A DNA stretch of 51,613 nucleotides, from positions 1-51,613 of the forward strand of contig JAJZEC010000022.1 in the NCBI GenBank assembly GCA_021805825.1. The letters are read 5' to 3'. The translations under genes were made by a program, and so were the position numbers. Below the pieces are notes generated by a model. That model searched no databases, was not told the DNA's origin, and saw only the letters and a list, made by a program, of their open reading frames with translations. Position 1 is the first letter of the stretch. Every line of letters begins with the position of its first letter. Below, piece after piece: positions 10,666-18,537 of this stretch. This DNA comes from Pseudomonadota bacterium (GTDB lineage Bacteria; Pseudomonadota; Gammaproteobacteria; Burkholderiales; Burkholderiaceae_C).

Positions 10666-11307
10666 TCAATTGCGCAGCAGGGCCATCGCGGTGCCGAAGC
10701 CGACGAACAGCCCGCCGGTGAGCTTCGCGAAAGCGGCCGCGACTCCGGCGCGCCGCAGCCAGCGCTCGAGACGTACCCCGCTGCTGGCGTACACCAGGTA
10801 CCAGGACACTTCGATGACCGCGAAGCTCAGCAGCAGAACGACGAACTGGGGCAGCGTGGGTTGGGTCGGGTTGATGAACTGCGGCAGCAGCGCGGCGGCG
10901 AACAGGATCGCCTTGGGGTTGCTGCTGGCCACCGCGAAGCCGCTGCGGTAGAGCGCCGCCGCGGTGCGCGCCGCAGGCGCGGCCTGCGGCAGGCTGCCCG
11001 CGCCCGGCTGGCGCGCATCGTGGCGCGCGCCCCGCCAGGTGCGCACGCCGAGCCACACCAGGTAGGCGGCGCCGAGCAGGCGCAGGGTGTCGAACACCGT
11101 GGGCCACTGCCGAAGCAGCGCGCCCAGGCCGGCGGCCGAGATGGCCATCATCAGCAGCAGCGCGCTGAGGCAGCCGGCCATGGTCGCGGTGCTGCGGCGC
11201 AGTCCGTGGCGCGCGCCATGGCTCATCACCAGCAGCATGTTCGGCCCGGGAATGGCCGAGATCACGGCCACGGTGGCGAGGTACAGCAACCAGATGTGCA
11301 GGCTCAT
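10666..11307 (-). CDS. LysE/RhtB-family amino-acid exporter
   Basis: 213-residue integral membrane protein with the six-helix plan of the LysE superfamily. The hallmark AIPGPNMLLV near residue 20 is the family's conserved GPN motif, followed by HGLRRSTATMAGC. The helix-4 region carries SSNPKAILFAAALLPQF, also typical. The substrate cannot be told from sequence; relatives export homoserine, threonine, lysine or homoserine lactones. The ATG at 11307 sits directly before the first helix. It is divergent from the copper regulator gene, but nothing ties it to copper. Confidence 0.9.
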   Translation of the reverse strand: MSLHIWLLYLATVAVISAIPGPNMLLVMSHGARHGLRRSTATMAGCLSALLLMMAISAAGLGALLRQWPTVFDTLRLLGAAYLVWLGVRTWRGARHDARQPGAGSLPQAAPAARTAAALYRSGFAVASSNPKAILFAAALLPQFINPTQPTLPQFVVLLLSFAVIEVSWYLVYASSGVRLERWLRRAGVAAAFAKLTGGLFVGFGTAMALLRN

Positions 11308-11440
11308 CGCAAGGGCAGTTCGGGGGAACGCGCAGGGCCGGCCCGGCCACGGCGCGGCCCGGGGAGGGGCGTTGCGACGCAGCGCGCTCGTCCCCCGCGG
11401 GCAAGCCCGAGAGTATGCCACGCCACCGCTCGCCGCGCGC

Positions 11441-11486
11441 TTGATCTGGCGCAAAGTCAAAAGCTTACTACCAACTACAATGTTGG
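11441..11486 (+). promoter_or_regulatory. MerR-type promoter of the cueR-copA operon
   Basis: TTGATC (11441-11446) and TACTAC (11466-11471) are separated by 19 bp, the long spacer that MerR-family activators act on. A second candidate -10, TACAAT (11476-11481), sits inside the inverted repeat CCAAC-N6-GTTGG and would leave almost no leader before ATG 11488. Either could be used; the classical CueR dyad ACCTTCC-GGAAGGT is not obvious. Confidence 0.4.
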
Positions 11487-11487
11487 C

Positions 11488-11949
11488 ATGCAAACTCCCA
11501 CCCCGTCTGCCGGCTCCATCGAGCGCCCCGCGGGTGCCTGGACCATCGGCCAGCTCGCGCGCCGGGCCGCGCTCGCTCCGGAGACCCTGCGCCACTACGA
11601 GCGCCTGGGGCTGGTCGAGCCAGCGCGGCGCAGCCACTCCAATTACCGCCTGTACGACGCGGCCGCGCTGCGTCGCCTGGAATTCATCCGGCGCGCGCAG
11701 GTTCTGGGCTTTTCGCTGCCCGAAATCGCTCAGCTGCTGGGGCTGCATGCCCAGCGCGACGAGAGCGGCGACATGGCGCAGGTGCATGCCATTGCCCGCC
11801 AGCGCTTGCTGCAGATCGAGCAGCGCATGGCCGACCTGCGTCGATTGCATGACGGGTTGCAGCAACTGCTCGATGCCTGCCCCGGGCATGGCAAGCTGGA
11901 CGATTGCCCGATCCTGGGCGCCCTGTGTGGCCCGAAGGAGCAGCCGTGA
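11488..11949 (+). CDS. cueR: CueR-type copper-responsive MerR regulator
   Basis: 153 residues. The N-terminal MerR winged helix reads [20 protein letters not shown], then [21 protein letters not shown] long dimerisation helix follows. The C-terminal metal loop [13 protein letters not shown] retains the two Cys that bind Cu(I) in CueR (CPG...DCPI pattern). It would activate the operon when cytoplasmic Cu(I) rises. The gene overlaps copA by four bases (GTGA), so regulator and pump are co-translated, unlike the usual divergent arrangement. The first 20 residues before the HTH are a Pro/Ser-rich extension. No good Shine-Dalgarno precedes ATG 11488. Confidence 0.9.
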
Positions 11950-14537
11950 CCGCGTCTTCCACGGTGGCCGAGCCGCTTGCGCCGCAGGGCGCGGCGGCAC
12001 CGGCCGAATGCGCCCTGCAGATCGACATCGAGGGCATGACCTGCGCCTCCTGCGTCAGCCGTGTCGAGCGTGCGCTGCGATCCTTGCCCGGGGTACTGCA
12101 GGCAGACGTCAACCTGGCGACCGAAACCGCCAGCGTGCGCCTGCAGCCGGCCGCCCTGCAGCCGCAGGCCCTGGTCGATGCGGTGCGCGGGGCCGGGTAC
12201 GGCGCCTCGCTGCGCGACAGCGATGCCGGGCGCGCCGACCGCGAGGCCGGGCAGCGCAAGCAGACGCAGCTTGCGTCCATGCGCAGGCAGGCATGGCTGG
12301 CGGCCGGCGCGGCCTTGGCGGTGGTGCTGCTTGCCATGGGGAGCATGGCCTGGCCGGCCGCGCACCGTGCGCTGGAGACCTCGGCTGCGCTGCGGCAGGC
12401 GGTGGATGCGCTGCAGGCCCTGTTGGCCAGCTGGGTGGTGTTCGGCCCCGGCAGGGGCTTTTTGCGCAACGGCTGGATCGCCTACCGCCACGCGGCACCG
12501 GACATGAATTCCCTGGTGGCCACCGGAGCCGGCGCGGCCTGGCTATTCAGCGTCGCGGTGCTGCTGGCGCCGCAGTGGTTCCCGCCGCAGGCCCGCCATC
12601 TGTACTTCGATTCGGCCGCGGTGGTGGTGGCGGCGGTGCTGTTCGGCAAGTATCTCGAGGAAATCGCCAAGGGGCGCGCCTCGCGGGCGATCCGCTCGCT
12701 GGCCCACCTGCAGGCGCGCAGCGCCCGCGTGCGCACCCCGCAGGGGGAGCGCGAGCTCCCGATCGGCGAAGTCCGGCAGGGCGACCAGGTGGTGGTGCGC
12801 CCGGGCGAACGGCTGCCGGTCGACGGCCAGGTGCTGGAAGGCGCCTCGCATGTCGACGAATCGATGCTCAGCGGCGAGCCGATTCCCGTCGACAAGCAGG
12901 TGGGCAGCGTGGTGCGGGCCGGCACCGTGAACCAGCAGGGCCTGCTCGTGGTGCGCGCCACGTCGGTGGGATCGGCCACGGTGCTGGCGCAGATCATCCG
13001 GCTGGTGGAGCAGGCGCAGGGCGGCAAGTTGCCGATCCAGGGCCTGGCCGATCGCGTGGTGCGGGTGTTCACCCCGGCGGTGCTGGCCGTGGCCGCCCTG
13101 AGTTTCCTGCTCTGGTTGCTGCTGGCTCCGGCCCCTGCGCTCGGACACGCGGTGCTGGCCGCGGTCGCCGTTCTGGTCGTGGCCTGTCCCTGTGCGATGG
13201 GCCTGGCGACCCCGGCGGCGATCATGGTCGGCACCGGGCGCGCAGCCGAACTGGGAGTGTTGTTTCGCCGCGGCGAAGCCCTGGAAGGCCTGTCCCATGT
13301 CGATACCGTGCTGCTCGACAAGACCGGGACGCTGACCCTGGGCAAGCCGCAGTTGACGGCGCTGCAGCCGATGCCCGGCGTCGAGCAGCAGGAGTTACTG
13401 CGCTGGGCCGCCGCGGTGGAGTCGGGTTCCGAGCACCCGCTGGCGCAGGCGGTGGTAGCCGAGGCCCGCCGGCAGCGGCTGCAGCTGCCAGCCCCCCGGG
13501 AGTTCCAGGCGCGTGCCGGTCACGGTGCGCAGGCGCGGGTCGACGACGCGCTGGTCGTGGTGGGCAGCTTGCGCTACCTGCGCGCTCTCGGGGTCGATAC
13601 CCCGGCGCTGGAATCGCAGGCGCAGCCGCTGCTGCAGCAGGGGGTGAGCGTGGTCTATGTGGCCCGCGCGGGCCACGCCGTCGGCCTGCTGGGGATTTCC
13701 GACCCGGCGCGTGCCGAGGCGCCGGCGGTCGTCGGGCGCCTGCAGGCGATGGGCCTGCAGGTGCAGCTCGTCAGCGGCGACGCCCGGGGCGCGGTGCAGG
13801 CGCTGGCCGATGCGGTGGGTATCGGCGCCGTGCATGCCGAGGTGCTGCCGCAGGACAAGGCCGAGGTGGTGCGGGAGTTGCAGCGCCAGGGGCACCGCGT
13901 GCTGTTCGTGGGCGACGGCATCAACGACGCACCGGCGCTGGCCCAGGCCGACGCCGGCATGGCACTGGCCAGCGGCACCGACATCGCGATGGAGGCTGCC
14001 GACATGACCCTGACGCGGGCGGAACTCGGCGGGGTCATCGATGCGCTGCAGGCCGCCGCGCATACCATGCGCACCATCCGGGGCAACCTGTTCTGGGCCT
14101 TCGCCTACAACGTGCTGCTCATCCCGCTGGCGGCCGGAGCGGGGGCGCCCTGGAATCTGCAGCTGCAACCGATGCTGGCGGCGATGGCGATGGGCATCTC
14201 CTCGCTGTTCGTGCTGGCCAACAGCCTGCGCCTGCGCCGGATGCGCGCCTGGAAGGTGCCCGCCGGGCCTGCGGCGCAGTCCCCGCCGATGCGAATTTCC
14301 CTGCCAACCTTGAGGAGTCCCGCGATGACCCAAACCCGAACCCTGACCATCGAAGGCATGAGCTGCCAGCACTGCGTGGGCAGCGTGACGCGCGCGCTGC
14401 AGGAAGTGCCGGGAGTGGAGTCGGCGCAGGTCAGCCTCGACGAGTCCAACGCCCGAGTGCGCGGCAGCGCGCCGCTGCAGGCCTTGCTGGACGCCGTGCA
14501 GCGAGCGGGCTACGTGGCCACCGCCGAAGAGGGCTGA
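11946..14537 (+). CDS. copA: Cu(I) P1B-type ATPase with C-terminal CopZ-like domain
   Basis: 863 residues. Exports Cu(I) across the inner membrane with ATP. N-terminal HMA domain with GMTCASC (30-36); transmembrane CPC metal site (414-416); phosphorylation motif DKTGT (458-462); nucleotide-domain SEHPLA; hinge GDGINDAP (from 656). The unusual part is the end. After the last transmembrane helices a 25-30-residue linker continues in frame into a complete second HMA domain ([17 protein letters not shown], Met794) that looks exactly like a free CopZ chaperone. That Met is an ATG with GAGGAG seven bases upstream, so a separate 70-residue chaperone is probably also made. GTG start overlaps cueR. 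Confidence 0.93.
14312..14327 (+). promoter_or_regulatory. copZ: internal ribosome-binding site and start for a CopZ-like chaperone
   Basis: GAGGAG at 14312-14317, seven-base spacer, ATG at 14325, all inside the copA reading frame and in frame with it. The product from this ATG to 14537 would be a 70-residue HMA protein with GMSCQHC at its residues 11-17, the size and start of ordinary CopZ. This suggests a former copZ gene whose upstream stop was lost, now read both as a fusion and alone. Confidence 0.6.
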
Positions 14538-14572
14538 AGGCCTGCGCCGGGGATCCGCCGGCGGGCGGGCGT

Positions 14573-17032
14573 TCAGCCGGGCGCTGCCGGTTGCAGCACG
14601 AACACCGCGCCGGCGCCTCCCTGCACGGTCAGCGCCCAGAATTGCTCGCGCAGCTCATCGCTGGCCAGGTGCAGGTCGAGTTCGAGCCCGGGGCGCGCGA
14701 GAGGTTCCTCGAGCCAGCGCCGCACCAGACCGTAGAACTCGGCGTGTCGCTGCACCAGCTGCTCGAAGCGCGCCTGGTGCCGCCAGCGACCGGCGTGATG
14801 CTGGCACCACAGCCCCAGCGCGCAACGCAGGTGGGCGTCGGGCTGGCGCAGGCTCTGCTCGCTTTCCGCGTCCAGCCCGCCTTGCAGCAGCTGGCGCAGC
14901 ATGGTGCCCAGGGAGACGATGGCCTCGATGCCGTCGGGGCCGAGCGCGCTGCCTTGCGCCAGTTCGGCGCTCCAGCCCAGGCGCTGGCGCCAGTCGGCGA
15001 TCCATTCGGGAAGCTGTGCAGCCGGCATCGGCCGGGCGATGGCATAGCCCTGCAGATGGCGGCAGCCCATGGCCACCAGCACGCGAGCCAGCTCGACGCT
15101 CTCCACCCCCTCGGCGACCACGCGCACCCCCATCAGCTGGGCCGTGCGCAGGATGCCGTAGGCAATGCTCAGGTCGCGCGCATCCTGCAGCAGATCCTTG
15201 ACGAAGCGTCGCTCGATCTTCAGCGTGGACACGGCCAGGGCCTGCAGGTGGGTGAGCGAGGCGCTGCCGGTGCCGAAGTCGTCCAGACTGACTTGCACCC
15301 CCAACGTATGGCATTGCTCGACGCGCCGGCGGGTGGCGTCGCCGTCGAGCAGGGCGCCGTGCTCGGTGAGCTCCAGCGTCAGGCTGGAGGGGCGCATGAG
15401 CGGGTGGCGGCCCAGCAGTTCACGCACATCGTCGAGGAAATTGGGCCCCAGGAAATGGCGCGGGCTGATGTTCACGCTCATGGCCATGTCCAGGCCGCAG
15501 GCGCTCCAGTGCTCGATCCATCGGGCGGCGCTTTCGAGCACCCAGCGGCCCACCGGGACGGACACGCGCGGCTCGTCCAGCACATGCTCGAAGGCGCCAG
15601 CGCTGTGCAGGCGGCCGTCGGCGTCCTGCAGCCGCAGCAGGCCCTCCACCTGGAGCACCGATGGCTGCGCGCCACGGCGCGCCGGAACCCCGAGGATCGG
15701 TTGCACATGCAACTGCAGCCGCTGCTGCGCGAGCGCGGCCTCGAGTTCGCTGAGCCAGCCCTGGCGCGCCTCCACCTCGGCTTGCATCGTCTGGTCGAAC
15801 ACGCAGGCCTGGTTGCGCCCGCGTGACTTGGCCGCGTACAAGGCCATGTCGGCCTGGCGCAGCAGGGTCTGCGCGTCCTCGCGCTGGGCGCGCAGCGCCA
15901 GCCCGAGGGACAGTCGCGCCGACAGCATCTGGCCGTCGACCTCGATGGGCTCGCGCAAGGCCGTCATCACCCGTTCCGCGATGCGGTGGACGCGTTGCGG
16001 ATCCTTGCCCACCTGCAGCAACAAGGCGAACTCGTCGCCCCCGATGCGCGCCAGCATGTCGGTTCCTCGGCCCTCGCGCGATTGCTGCGACAGACGCAGC
16101 GCGCGCCGCAGGCGCGCGGCCACCTCAACCAGCAGGGCGTCGCCGGCAGCGTGGCCGAACCGGTCGTTGACGGCCTTGAAGTCATCCAGGTCGGCGATCC
16201 CCAGGGCCACGTCCTCGCGTTGCTGCAGGGTCTGCCCCAGCAGGTGCTCGAAGGCGCCGCGGTTGCTCAGTCCGGTCAGGGCATCGCGCTCAGCCAGCGC
16301 GCGGATCTGCTCCTCCTGGCGCTTGCGCTCGGTGACGTCCTGGATCGACCACAAGGCTCCGGCCGATGCTCCCTGGGGGTCGCGCAGGGGGATGTAGTGG
16401 CGCAGCAGGATGCGGCCGTCGGTGAGCCAGACTTCGTCGACCGCGGGGATGTGTTCGCGGAACAGGATCTTCACTTGCTTCAAGGCGTCGGCGCCGCCCA
16501 GATGCATGCCGGCGATGCGATTCCAGACCGCGCGCCAGTCCTCGCCGACGATCGATCGGGCTTGCTCCTGCAGGCTGGTCATGCGCAGGAACCCCTCGTT
16601 GCAATACCGCACCACGCCCGCGGGGTCGAACACGATCAGGCCGCCTGGCAGCTGATCCAGGATCTGGGTGAACAGCAGGGCATGCGCGCGCTGCGCCTCG
16701 CGCGCCTCCTCGTCGGCGCGCGACTGGGCGCGGGCTTTGGCGATCCATGCGCGCTGCATGTTTCGTTGGCGCAACAAAAGCGCCAGCAGCAGCACCGCCA
16801 GCAGCAGCGACAGCGTCATCGGGATGCGCGGCAGGCCCCACCAGCCTCGCGCCAGCGCCCCGGCCGACTGCGCCGAAGGCCGCGCGCGGCCCAGCCACGA
16901 CAGGCTCAGCGCGAGGAAGGACGCGGTGCCGGCGAGCAGCGCGGCCAGCACCGTGGCCAGCGTCGCCAGGTCGCGGCGGCGCGGCCGCAGCGCATCGGCA
17001 AGGGGCGACTGGCCAGGGTCGGTCATGGACAT
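14573..17032 (-). CDS. membrane GGDEF-EAL protein with extra C-terminal helical domain
   Basis: 819 residues. Two N-terminal transmembrane helices, a PAS domain (about 100-230), GGDEF domain with intact GGDEF at 331-335, then EAL domain. The EAL site has drifted: EGL at about 463 replaces EAL and KIE replaces KID, while NISPRHF, ELTE, DDFGTGSAS, VAEGVES and QGY persist. Diguanylate cyclase activity looks intact; phosphodiesterase activity is uncertain. The last 130 residues include CALGLWCQHH and, further on, QRHAEFY, resembling a CZB zinc-binding domain with the final His replaced by Tyr. ATG 17032 is followed closely by a second ATG at 17026. Divergent from the next cyclase gene. Confidence 0.88.
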   Translation of the reverse strand: MSMTDPGQSPLADALRPRRRDLATLATVLAALLAGTASFLALSLSWLGRARPSAQSAGALARGWWGLPRIPMTLSLLLAVLLLALLLRQRNMQRAWIAKARAQSRADEEAREAQRAHALLFTQILDQLPGGLIVFDPAGVVRYCNEGFLRMTSLQEQARSIVGEDWRAVWNRIAGMHLGGADALKQVKILFREHIPAVDEVWLTDGRILLRHYIPLRDPQGASAGALWSIQDVTERKRQEEQIRALAERDALTGLSNRGAFEHLLGQTLQQREDVALGIADLDDFKAVNDRFGHAAGDALLVEVAARLRRALRLSQQSREGRGTDMLARIGGDEFALLLQVGKDPQRVHRIAERVMTALREPIEVDGQMLSARLSLGLALRAQREDAQTLLRQADMALYAAKSRGRNQACVFDQTMQAEVEARQGWLSELEAALAQQRLQLHVQPILGVPARRGAQPSVLQVEGLLRLQDADGRLHSAGAFEHVLDEPRVSVPVGRWVLESAARWIEHWSACGLDMAMSVNISPRHFLGPNFLDDVRELLGRHPLMRPSSLTLELTEHGALLDGDATRRRVEQCHTLGVQVSLDDFGTGSASLTHLQALAVSTLKIERRFVKDLLQDARDLSIAYGILRTAQLMGVRVVAEGVESVELARVLVAMGCRHLQGYAIARPMPAAQLPEWIADWRQRLGWSAELAQGSALGPDGIEAIVSLGTMLRQLLQGGLDAESEQSLRQPDAHLRCALGLWCQHHAGRWRHQARFEQLVQRHAEFYGLVRRWLEEPLARPGLELDLHLASDELREQFWALTVQGGAGAVFVLQPAAPG

Positions 17033-17205
17033 ATAGCCTAATCGATACTTGGGTACGTACGGATCCGTGGACACCGGACGGGGCCGGCGCGCGAATTCAT
17101 CGCGGATCGTGCATTTGTTCTCAGTTCTTCGACCCCGCCTTTGTTTAGACTTGCGGTCGGGCACCACGCCAGCCGAGCGTCGGTGTCTTGTCGACAGGTT
17201 CGCGC

Positions 17206-18537
17206 ATGCCATCGCGGCTTGTCCCTGGCTGCCGCAGAGCGCAGTCGTCGATGCTCGCCCGGATGATGCTTGCCGCAGAAGGTTCCTTCGGTGCCTTGCC
17301 CGCCCAGGCCGCCTGGCTCGACGCCCTCGCGGCGCCGGTGGTGCTGGTGGTCGGCGAGAGCATGCGCTACGTCAATGCGGCGGCGGTGTCCCTGCTGCGC
17401 GCGGAATCGGCCGGGTACCTGATCGGCCGCAGCCTGCGCGATTTCATCCACCCGCTCGACGCGCACCGGATCTTCGCGCGCATTCAGCGCGCCGAGGCTG
17501 GCGTGGCGATCAACCCGCCGACCAGCGTGCGGGTGTTCGATTGCGCGGGGGCCGAGCGCACGCTGGCCGTCACCAGTTCCCCGGTCGACTGCTCCGGACA
17601 GACCGGCGTGCTCGCCACCTGCATCGACATGACCGAGCGCGTGGCCATGGAGCAGCACCTGCGACGCACCGACGAGGACTTCCGGCGCATCATGGACACC
17701 ATGCAGGATGTGTTCTACCGCACCGACGAAAAGGGCATCACCCGATACGTGTGCCCGGCGGTGCGCAATGTGCTGGGCTACAGCGCGGAGGAGATCATCG
17801 GGCTGCCGGCGGCCGCGTTCTATCCGGATCCGGTCGAGCGCAATGCTCTCGTCGAGGCCATCCGCGCGCAGGGCTTCGTGCGCGATTTTCCCGGCCGCAT
17901 GCGCCGCAAGGACGGGGTGATCATCGACATTTCGATCAGCACCCAGGCACTGCGCGACGAGCAGGGGCAATTCGCCGGCGTCGAGGGCATCTGGCGCGAC
18001 ATCTCCGAGCGTCGGGCGATGGAGCGCGAACTGCTTCGCCTGGCCACCCGCGACCACCTGACGGGCCTGTTCAGCCGTCGCCATGTCCTGGAAATGCTCG
18101 AGGAGGAACTGCAGCGCCGGCGTGACCGGCGCGCGCAGGCGCCGCTGTCCGTGCTGCTGCTGGATCTCGATCATTTCAAGCGGGTCAACGACGAGTTCGG
18201 CCATGCCGCCGGCGACGAAGTGCTGCGCCAGTTCGTGCAGCGGGTCGAGCAGTCGCGCCGCGGCAACGATTCCTTCGGCCGACTCGGCGGCGAGGAATTC
18301 CTGTTGCTGTTGCACGGTGCCGACGGGGTGGCGGCGCGGCAACTCGCCGAGCGCATACGCGCCGGCGTCGCGGCCGAGGATTTCCGCCTGCCCGGGGATG
18401 GTGCGGTGCGGCTGAGCGTGAGCATCGGCTGGACCCTGGTGGAAGCCGCCGACGCTCGAGCCGGCGAAGTGCTCGAGCGAGCCGACCGAGCGCTGTACGA
18501 GGCCAAGCGCGGTGGGCGCAACCGGGTGTCGCCCTAG
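17206..18537 (+). CDS. PAS-PAS-GGDEF diguanylate cyclase
   Basis: About 443 residues, no transmembrane helix seen, so probably cytoplasmic. Two PAS domains: the first around APVVLVVGESMRYVNAAA to the CIDMTERV linker, the second from RIMDTMQDVFYRTDEKG to IWRDISERRAME. The GGDEF domain follows (RDHLTGLFSRRHVLEML, DLDHFKRVNDEFGHAAGDE, GRLGGEEF, ADRALYEAKRGGRN). The active-site GGEEF is intact, so it should make c-di-GMP in response to a PAS ligand or partner. Start is uncertain; TTG 17188 and ATGs at 17251 or 17263 are alternatives. It faces away from the GGDEF-EAL gene, suggesting a paired c-di-GMP control unit near the polysaccharide locus. Confidence 0.87.
   Translation: MPSRLVPGCRRAQSSMLARMMLAAEGSFGALPAQAAWLDALAAPVVLVVGESMRYVNAAAVSLLRAESAGYLIGRSLRDFIHPLDAHRIFARIQRAEAGVAINPPTSVRVFDCAGAERTLAVTSSPVDCSGQTGVLATCIDMTERVAMEQHLRRTDEDFRRIMDTMQDVFYRTDEKGITRYVCPAVRNVLGYSAEEIIGLPAAAFYPDPVERNALVEAIRAQGFVRDFPGRMRRKDGVIIDISISTQALRDEQGQFAGVEGIWRDISERRAMERELLRLATRDHLTGLFSRRHVLEMLEEELQRRRDRRAQAPLSVLLLDLDHFKRVNDEFGHAAGDEVLRQFVQRVEQSRRGNDSFGRLGGEEFLLLLHGADGVAARQLAERIRAGVAAEDFRLPGDGAVRLSVSIGWTLVEAADARAGEVLERADRALYEAKRGGRNRVSP

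Follow-up and report, generated by a model that had tools for sequence, protein, structure and literature searches.

A copA gene fused in frame to copZ keeps a ribosome-binding site and a start codon for the chaperone inside its frame

The window, the whole stretch of DNA that was analysed (51,613 nucleotides; assembly GCA_021805825.1, contig JAJZEC010000022.1, from a bacterium of the Burkholderiaceae_C), carries a copper pump gene whose frame is open from the GTG at 11946 to the TGA at 14535-14537 and encodes 863 residues (Table 1). Cu+-transporting PIB-1 ATPases are recognised by the signatures CPC, DKTGT, SEHP, GDGxND, YN and MxxSS, and a motif scan found all of them in the protein. The pump scored 556.1 bits against TIGR01511 (Cu+-ATPase, CopA), above the cut-off of 397, and 704.7 against PRK10671, the equivalog for the E. 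coli CopA, below its cut-off of 1316. The TGA of an upstream regulator gene overlaps the GTG of copA. Because this regulator remained below every cut-off of the NCBIfam equivalogs ZntR, CueR and MerR (105 bits for CueR, TIGR02044, cut-off 147.4), it is named only as a member of the MerR family, with no metal assigned. A scan of 11300-14800 for sigma-70 type promoters found no internal promoter for a short copZ transcript. Beside copA are a PAS-GGDEF-EAL gene (14573-17212, minus strand) and a PAS-GGDEF gene (17188-18537, plus strand), both signs of cyclic-di-GMP signalling.

Table 1. Features of the fused copA-copZ gene and its upstream neighbour, in window coordinates.
Feature	Position	Strand	Detail or evidence
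MerR-family regulator, 153 aa	11488..11949	+	Pfam MerR_1, MerR-DNA-bind and MerR over cut-off
Shine-Dalgarno AAGGAG of copA	11935..11940	+	5 bases before GTG 11946, read from sequence
Fused copA-copZ gene	11946..14537	+	863 aa, Cu+-ATPase and CopZ-type HMA domain
N-terminal HMA domain (GMTCASC)	12021..12200	+	PF00403 67.6 bits, E 4.1e-18
CopA signatures, by residue			CPC 414, DKTGT 458, SEHP 495, GDGIND 656, FAYN 719, MGISS 749
Linker, residues 766-793	14241..14324	+	AlphaFold2 model
Embedded Shine-Dalgarno GAGGAG, candidate for copZ	14312..14317	+	sequence and genus comparison
Embedded candidate copZ start ATG (Met794)	14325..14327	+	ATG 15, GTG 1 among 17 fused genes of genus
copZ reading frame, 70 aa	14325..14537	+	NF047957 89.8 bits, cut-off 85
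C-terminal HMA domain (GMSCQHC)	14340..14513	+	PF00403 65.1 bits; model

An earlier reading of the sequence alone had claimed that the copA frame continues through a linker into a full HMA domain with the motif GMSCQHC, and the uninterrupted frame together with the PF00403 match bears this out. The last 70 residues passed the cut-off of NF047957, the CopZ family metallochaperone, whereas the N-terminal HMA domain reached only 64.4 bits; the C-terminal domain is therefore more like CopZ than the pump's own HMA domain is. The C-terminal residues fell short of three further models, NF033795 (54.3, cut-off 91), NF033794 (53.5, cut-off 95) and TIGR00003 (45.6, cut-off 62), and so did the N-terminal domain. 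The genome (3.35 Mb in 110 contigs, stated completeness 100) holds no PF00403 match at E <=0.001 besides this pair. A single N-terminal HMA match was found in the window's CopA, while many CopA proteins of the genus have two.

The structure of the protein was modelled with AlphaFold2 from 40 sequences (mean pLDDT 87.8, pTM 0.78). In the model, the final long helix comprises residues 742-765. Residues 777-792 had a pLDDT below 50, and the linker is predicted to be disordered. The C-terminal HMA domain was modelled from residue 796 as strand-helix-strand-strand-helix-strand, with pLDDT blocks of 96-98 over residues 801-860. Since the first strand begins at residue 796, Met794 would stand at the domain boundary.

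In agreement with the sequence-only reading, the domain has an ATG of its own at its beginning, preceded by GAGGAG with a gap of 7 bases and followed by a frame of 70 codons. When the ten codons before Met794 were re-encoded synonymously, 0 of 2000 versions matched the strength of the anti-Shine-Dalgarno duplex. By duplex energy alone the site is rare, not unique, because 2 of the 67 in-frame ATG or GTG codons of the window's pump have an equally strong Shine-Dalgarno sequence. The RNA around the ATG (-30 to +16) was less structured than every pump window sampled, at every third codon, and this openness was equalled by 4.75% of synonymous recodings. Here and in 10 other fused genes of the genus, the start codon is part of an ATGA (14325-14328 in the window) that puts a +1-frame TGA on the start itself, possibly reflecting nothing but a frequent Ser or Thr as second codon.

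The distribution of the fusion was examined in 28 genomes of the genus, one of them the window's own. CopA and CopZ share one frame in 17 of these. In six genomes copZ is a separate gene with an ATG and a Shine-Dalgarno sequence of its own; counted from the first base of the copA stop, its start lies 45-81 bases away. The outgroup, G045, also has a separate copZ. One genome has a copA with no copZ directly after it (G025), one has a copA cut by a contig end that was excluded from the counts of changes of state (G003), and a comparable copA end (G024) or a comparable CopA (G007, G018) was not found in the others. In the CopA tree of the genus, 16 fused genes form one group, the main clade, with a support of 93/93 and a branch that is not starred. 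The remaining fused gene, in G011, was placed among unfused genes, and the tree needs two changes of state. Between the end of TM8 and the HMA motif lie 40 to 71 codons, depending on the fused gene. A separate copZ, which the sequence-only reading had thought conceivable as the ancestral state, is a plausible one judging from the gene order in the six genomes and the outgroup.

A ribosome-binding site and a start were found inside the frame in 16 of the 17 fused genes, the start being ATG in all of them but G019, where it is GTG. The register from Shine-Dalgarno sequence to start is constant; between start and HMA motif there are 9 to 20 codons. The strength of the Shine-Dalgarno sequence exceeded synonymous recoding at P <0.05 in 15 of 16 genes (G016 was skipped). 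Furthermore, in all 16 genes no sampled pump window was as open as the start region (-30 to +16), whose RNA energies resembled those at the starts of separate copZ genes. Openness beat synonymous recoding at P <0.05 in only 12 of 28 genes, those outside the genus included, and is therefore due in part to amino-acid composition. The exception is G016, which is fused and has lost both the Shine-Dalgarno sequence and the start; another ATG lies 22 codons upstream, with a Shine-Dalgarno score of -7.1. Free CopZ would thus be dispensable in this organism or made in some other way.

Genomes outside the genus were searched with a profile (A1) derived from fused proteins, which could be biased towards sequences like them. 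The samples comprised 399 genomes of the family, 399 of the order and 398 of the phylum, and one Sutterella locus was added. At least 15 further fusions were found, a lower bound that gives no rate, since the samples overlap and only listed matches were counted. A start with a Shine-Dalgarno sequence was present at the first CopZ boundary in 12 of these 15. In the others, the embedded start stands only before the second C-terminal HMA domain (G054, L197) or is absent from a gene with several such domains (G746, L194; G661, L198); these three were skipped in the tests of openness and recoding. Tandem C-terminal HMA domains, two in G746 and G054 and three in G661, are an observation from family f20 of the same order. 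Shine-Dalgarno strength beat recoding at P <0.05 in 5 of the 12 outside genes that have the start.

When all fused genes were taken together, a start with a Shine-Dalgarno sequence at the CopZ boundary was seen in 28 of 32. An in-frame ATG or GTG with a Shine-Dalgarno score of -6 or stronger was found at 28 of the 32 junctions (27 without the non-homologous ATG of G016), as compared with 15.5% of 24-codon pump windows taken as the null. All 29 starts belonged to the most open 5%, of which 28 are homologous and one is the non-homologous codon of G016. Because the genes are related, these counts are not independent trials. On the CopA tree that combines the fusions with unfused relatives, six changes of state are required, each of them imposed by starred branches; this was a quick tree with several long rows, in which starred branches are trusted less and gains and losses are indistinguishable by count. 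The Sutterella CopA groups with family f20 in this tree. In genus g73 of the same family (L165-L168), the open reading frame after copA is not copZ and begins with MPSIVFSAQ, and an SD-like stretch lies at the copA stop; no Pfam family matched the first 45 residues of the L165 frame at E <=0.001.

The possibility was considered that only the long protein is made and that the embedded Shine-Dalgarno sequence and ATG are unused leftovers of the separate gene. Such an explanation would be consistent with the loss of the site in the G016 fusion, with the three tandem fusions whose first C-terminal HMA domain has no start, and with G011, where the Shine-Dalgarno sequence is weak (-5.6) and no better than expected: 11 of 79 pump ATG or GTG codons scored as well, and 14% of recodings reached its strength. 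However, a site without function should decay like other rare codons, and its surroundings have changed in both sequence and length. In the 17 pumps, AGG accounts for 21 of 712 Arg codons (2.9%) and AGT for 17 of 468 Ser codons, and the Arg codon of the site in the main clade is AGG in 13 genes and CGG in 2. Different subclades of the main clade share AGG in 126 of 162 comparisons at the Shine-Dalgarno sequence (78%) and in 20 of 199 elsewhere in the pump (about 10%), and AGT in 148 of 172 (86%) as against 12 of 154 (8%); 16 genes entered at the site and 13 on the pump side, three truncated ones being left out. Moreover, among 27 conserved Arg and 14 conserved Ser columns of the pump, the rare codon never occurred in more than 4 species. 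Disused remains of a former gene are accordingly an improbable explanation.

It has been suggested, though not without dispute, that SD-like sequences within genes slow the ribosome. The stretch could have been preserved to pause translation for the sake of membrane insertion or CopZ domain folding, and in the model it lies about 24 codons past the last long helix. A pause, however, requires neither a start codon in a fixed register nor unstructured RNA, and where the ATG has changed, in just one of the 16 kept sites (G019), it has become GTG, which is also a start codon. It is very unlikely that pausing, rather than initiation, is what has preserved the site. Equally slight is the chance that the residues R-S-x-x-M are conserved for a reason at the protein level, for example as a protease site from which free CopZ would arise by cleavage. 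The motif is common in the fused proteins, also outside the genus (RSLDM, RSQQM, RSQEM, RSIQM). Yet the preference is for particular codons, with AGG at 14 of the 16 kept sites in spite of its rarity in the pumps, and other fusions have different residues at this place (GEKGM, GAGTM, GVSTV, GENTM) and still keep the Shine-Dalgarno sequence.

A TGA at 14311-14313 does lie in the +1 frame, as the sequence-only reading had pointed out. Its suggested role as what is left of a former copA stop did not survive comparison: the TGA was found at this position in 0 of the 16 other fused genes of the genus and, not being conserved, is no mark of such a stop. It is probably there by chance. An assembly or sequencing indel, the other explanation for which this TGA might speak, has a negligible probability, because the fusion recurs with different linkers in the many separate assemblies of the 17 genomes and also in other families.

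In the E. coli CopA(Z) system, the chaperone is reportedly the N-terminal HMA region, made by programmed -1 frameshifting. Frameshifting of this type was rejected for the present gene, as a scan for X-XXY-YYZ motifs gave no suitable heptamer. The single in-frame match is at 12800, and from there the -1 frame stays open to the end of the gene; a slippery heptamer after the N-terminal HMA domain with an early -1-frame stop, as in the E. coli type, was not found among these motifs.

The genus comparison makes it very probable that internal initiation lets the fused gene specify both a free CopZ and a pump that carries a tethered chaperone. The earlier suggestion that one gene gives both by a route unlike frameshifting gains support from the spread of the fusion, the retention of the start and the signs of selection on its codons in the main clade. 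A copZ gene that was separate in the ancestor of the clade would have become joined in frame to the copA upstream of it. Ribosomes starting at GTG 11946 would produce CopA with the CopZ domain held on the linker, and the comparison of genomes shows that selection has preserved the ribosome-binding site and start of copZ inside the coding frame. Other ribosomes therefore most likely initiate at ATG 14325 and yield the free chaperone of 70 residues. CopZ collects cytosolic Cu+ and delivers it to CopA. By this function the tethered copy may pass Cu+ on to the pump, and the free copy may gather it in the cytosol. A single mRNA would serve for both products, perhaps controlled by the upstream MerR-type regulator. 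The evidence is best for the genus's main clade; each fusion beyond it is less well supported. That fusions with a kept start arose repeatedly, as a convergent solution in which selection holds a free and a tethered supply of the chaperone from one mRNA, is on balance somewhat favoured by the six changes of state and the starts seen at the CopZ boundaries.

Parts of this arrangement are known from other systems. According to PMC9548414, the E. coli copA gene also gives rise to both a pump and a copper chaperone by frameshifting. The chaperone domain of that system is reportedly N-terminal, whereas here it is C-terminal and has an embedded start, and the scan for X-XXY-YYZ motifs found no suitable slippery site. 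An in-frame start with a Shine-Dalgarno sequence, conserved at a domain boundary, is what characterises internal initiation of the SctQ type, and the fused gene shows these features. In SctQ / SctQC (HrcQ / HrcQC) of type III secretion, an internal in-frame start likewise produces the C-terminal region alone, as PMC12376730 describes, but the proteins are unrelated, their role is structural and there is no chaperone-to-pump relation. A further counterpart is a separate CopZ (NF047957) beside CopA, the order seen in six genomes of the genus. The cut-off of this family is also reached by the 70 residues, and the difference is that no stop lies between pump and chaperone here.

PDB 3fry, which we take to be the C-terminal metal-binding domain of Archaeoglobus fulgidus CopA, matches at 1.5e-5. 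The title of Agarwal 2010 names a C-terminal metal-binding domain in this Cu+-ATPase, a likeness to the fused protein. The CopZ of A. fulgidus differs in being fused to an iron-sulfur domain. Among the papers listed in literature searches, none described a fusion of CopA with CopZ in which the copZ start is preserved. Thus the frameshift chaperone of CopA, the C-terminal metal-binding domain of CopA and the internal start of SctQ are known, while the fusion with a kept start seems to be unreported.

If the proposed internal initiation is correct, it would give bacterial copper pump genes a second way to supply a free chaperone of their own. This way would use the other end of the protein and another step of translation than in E. 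coli, and would apparently have arisen more than once. The question why the same domain is needed both tethered and free would become testable. The fused genes also show that a downstream start can survive long after a gene fusion, where annotation of the long frame alone hides it. As a minor observation on the neighbourhood of the fused genes, a tRNA-Arg (TCT) gene follows the fused copA in G011 (L149:1383-1459), G008 (L152:895-971), G019 (L153:1035-1111) and G016 (L157:1343-1419).
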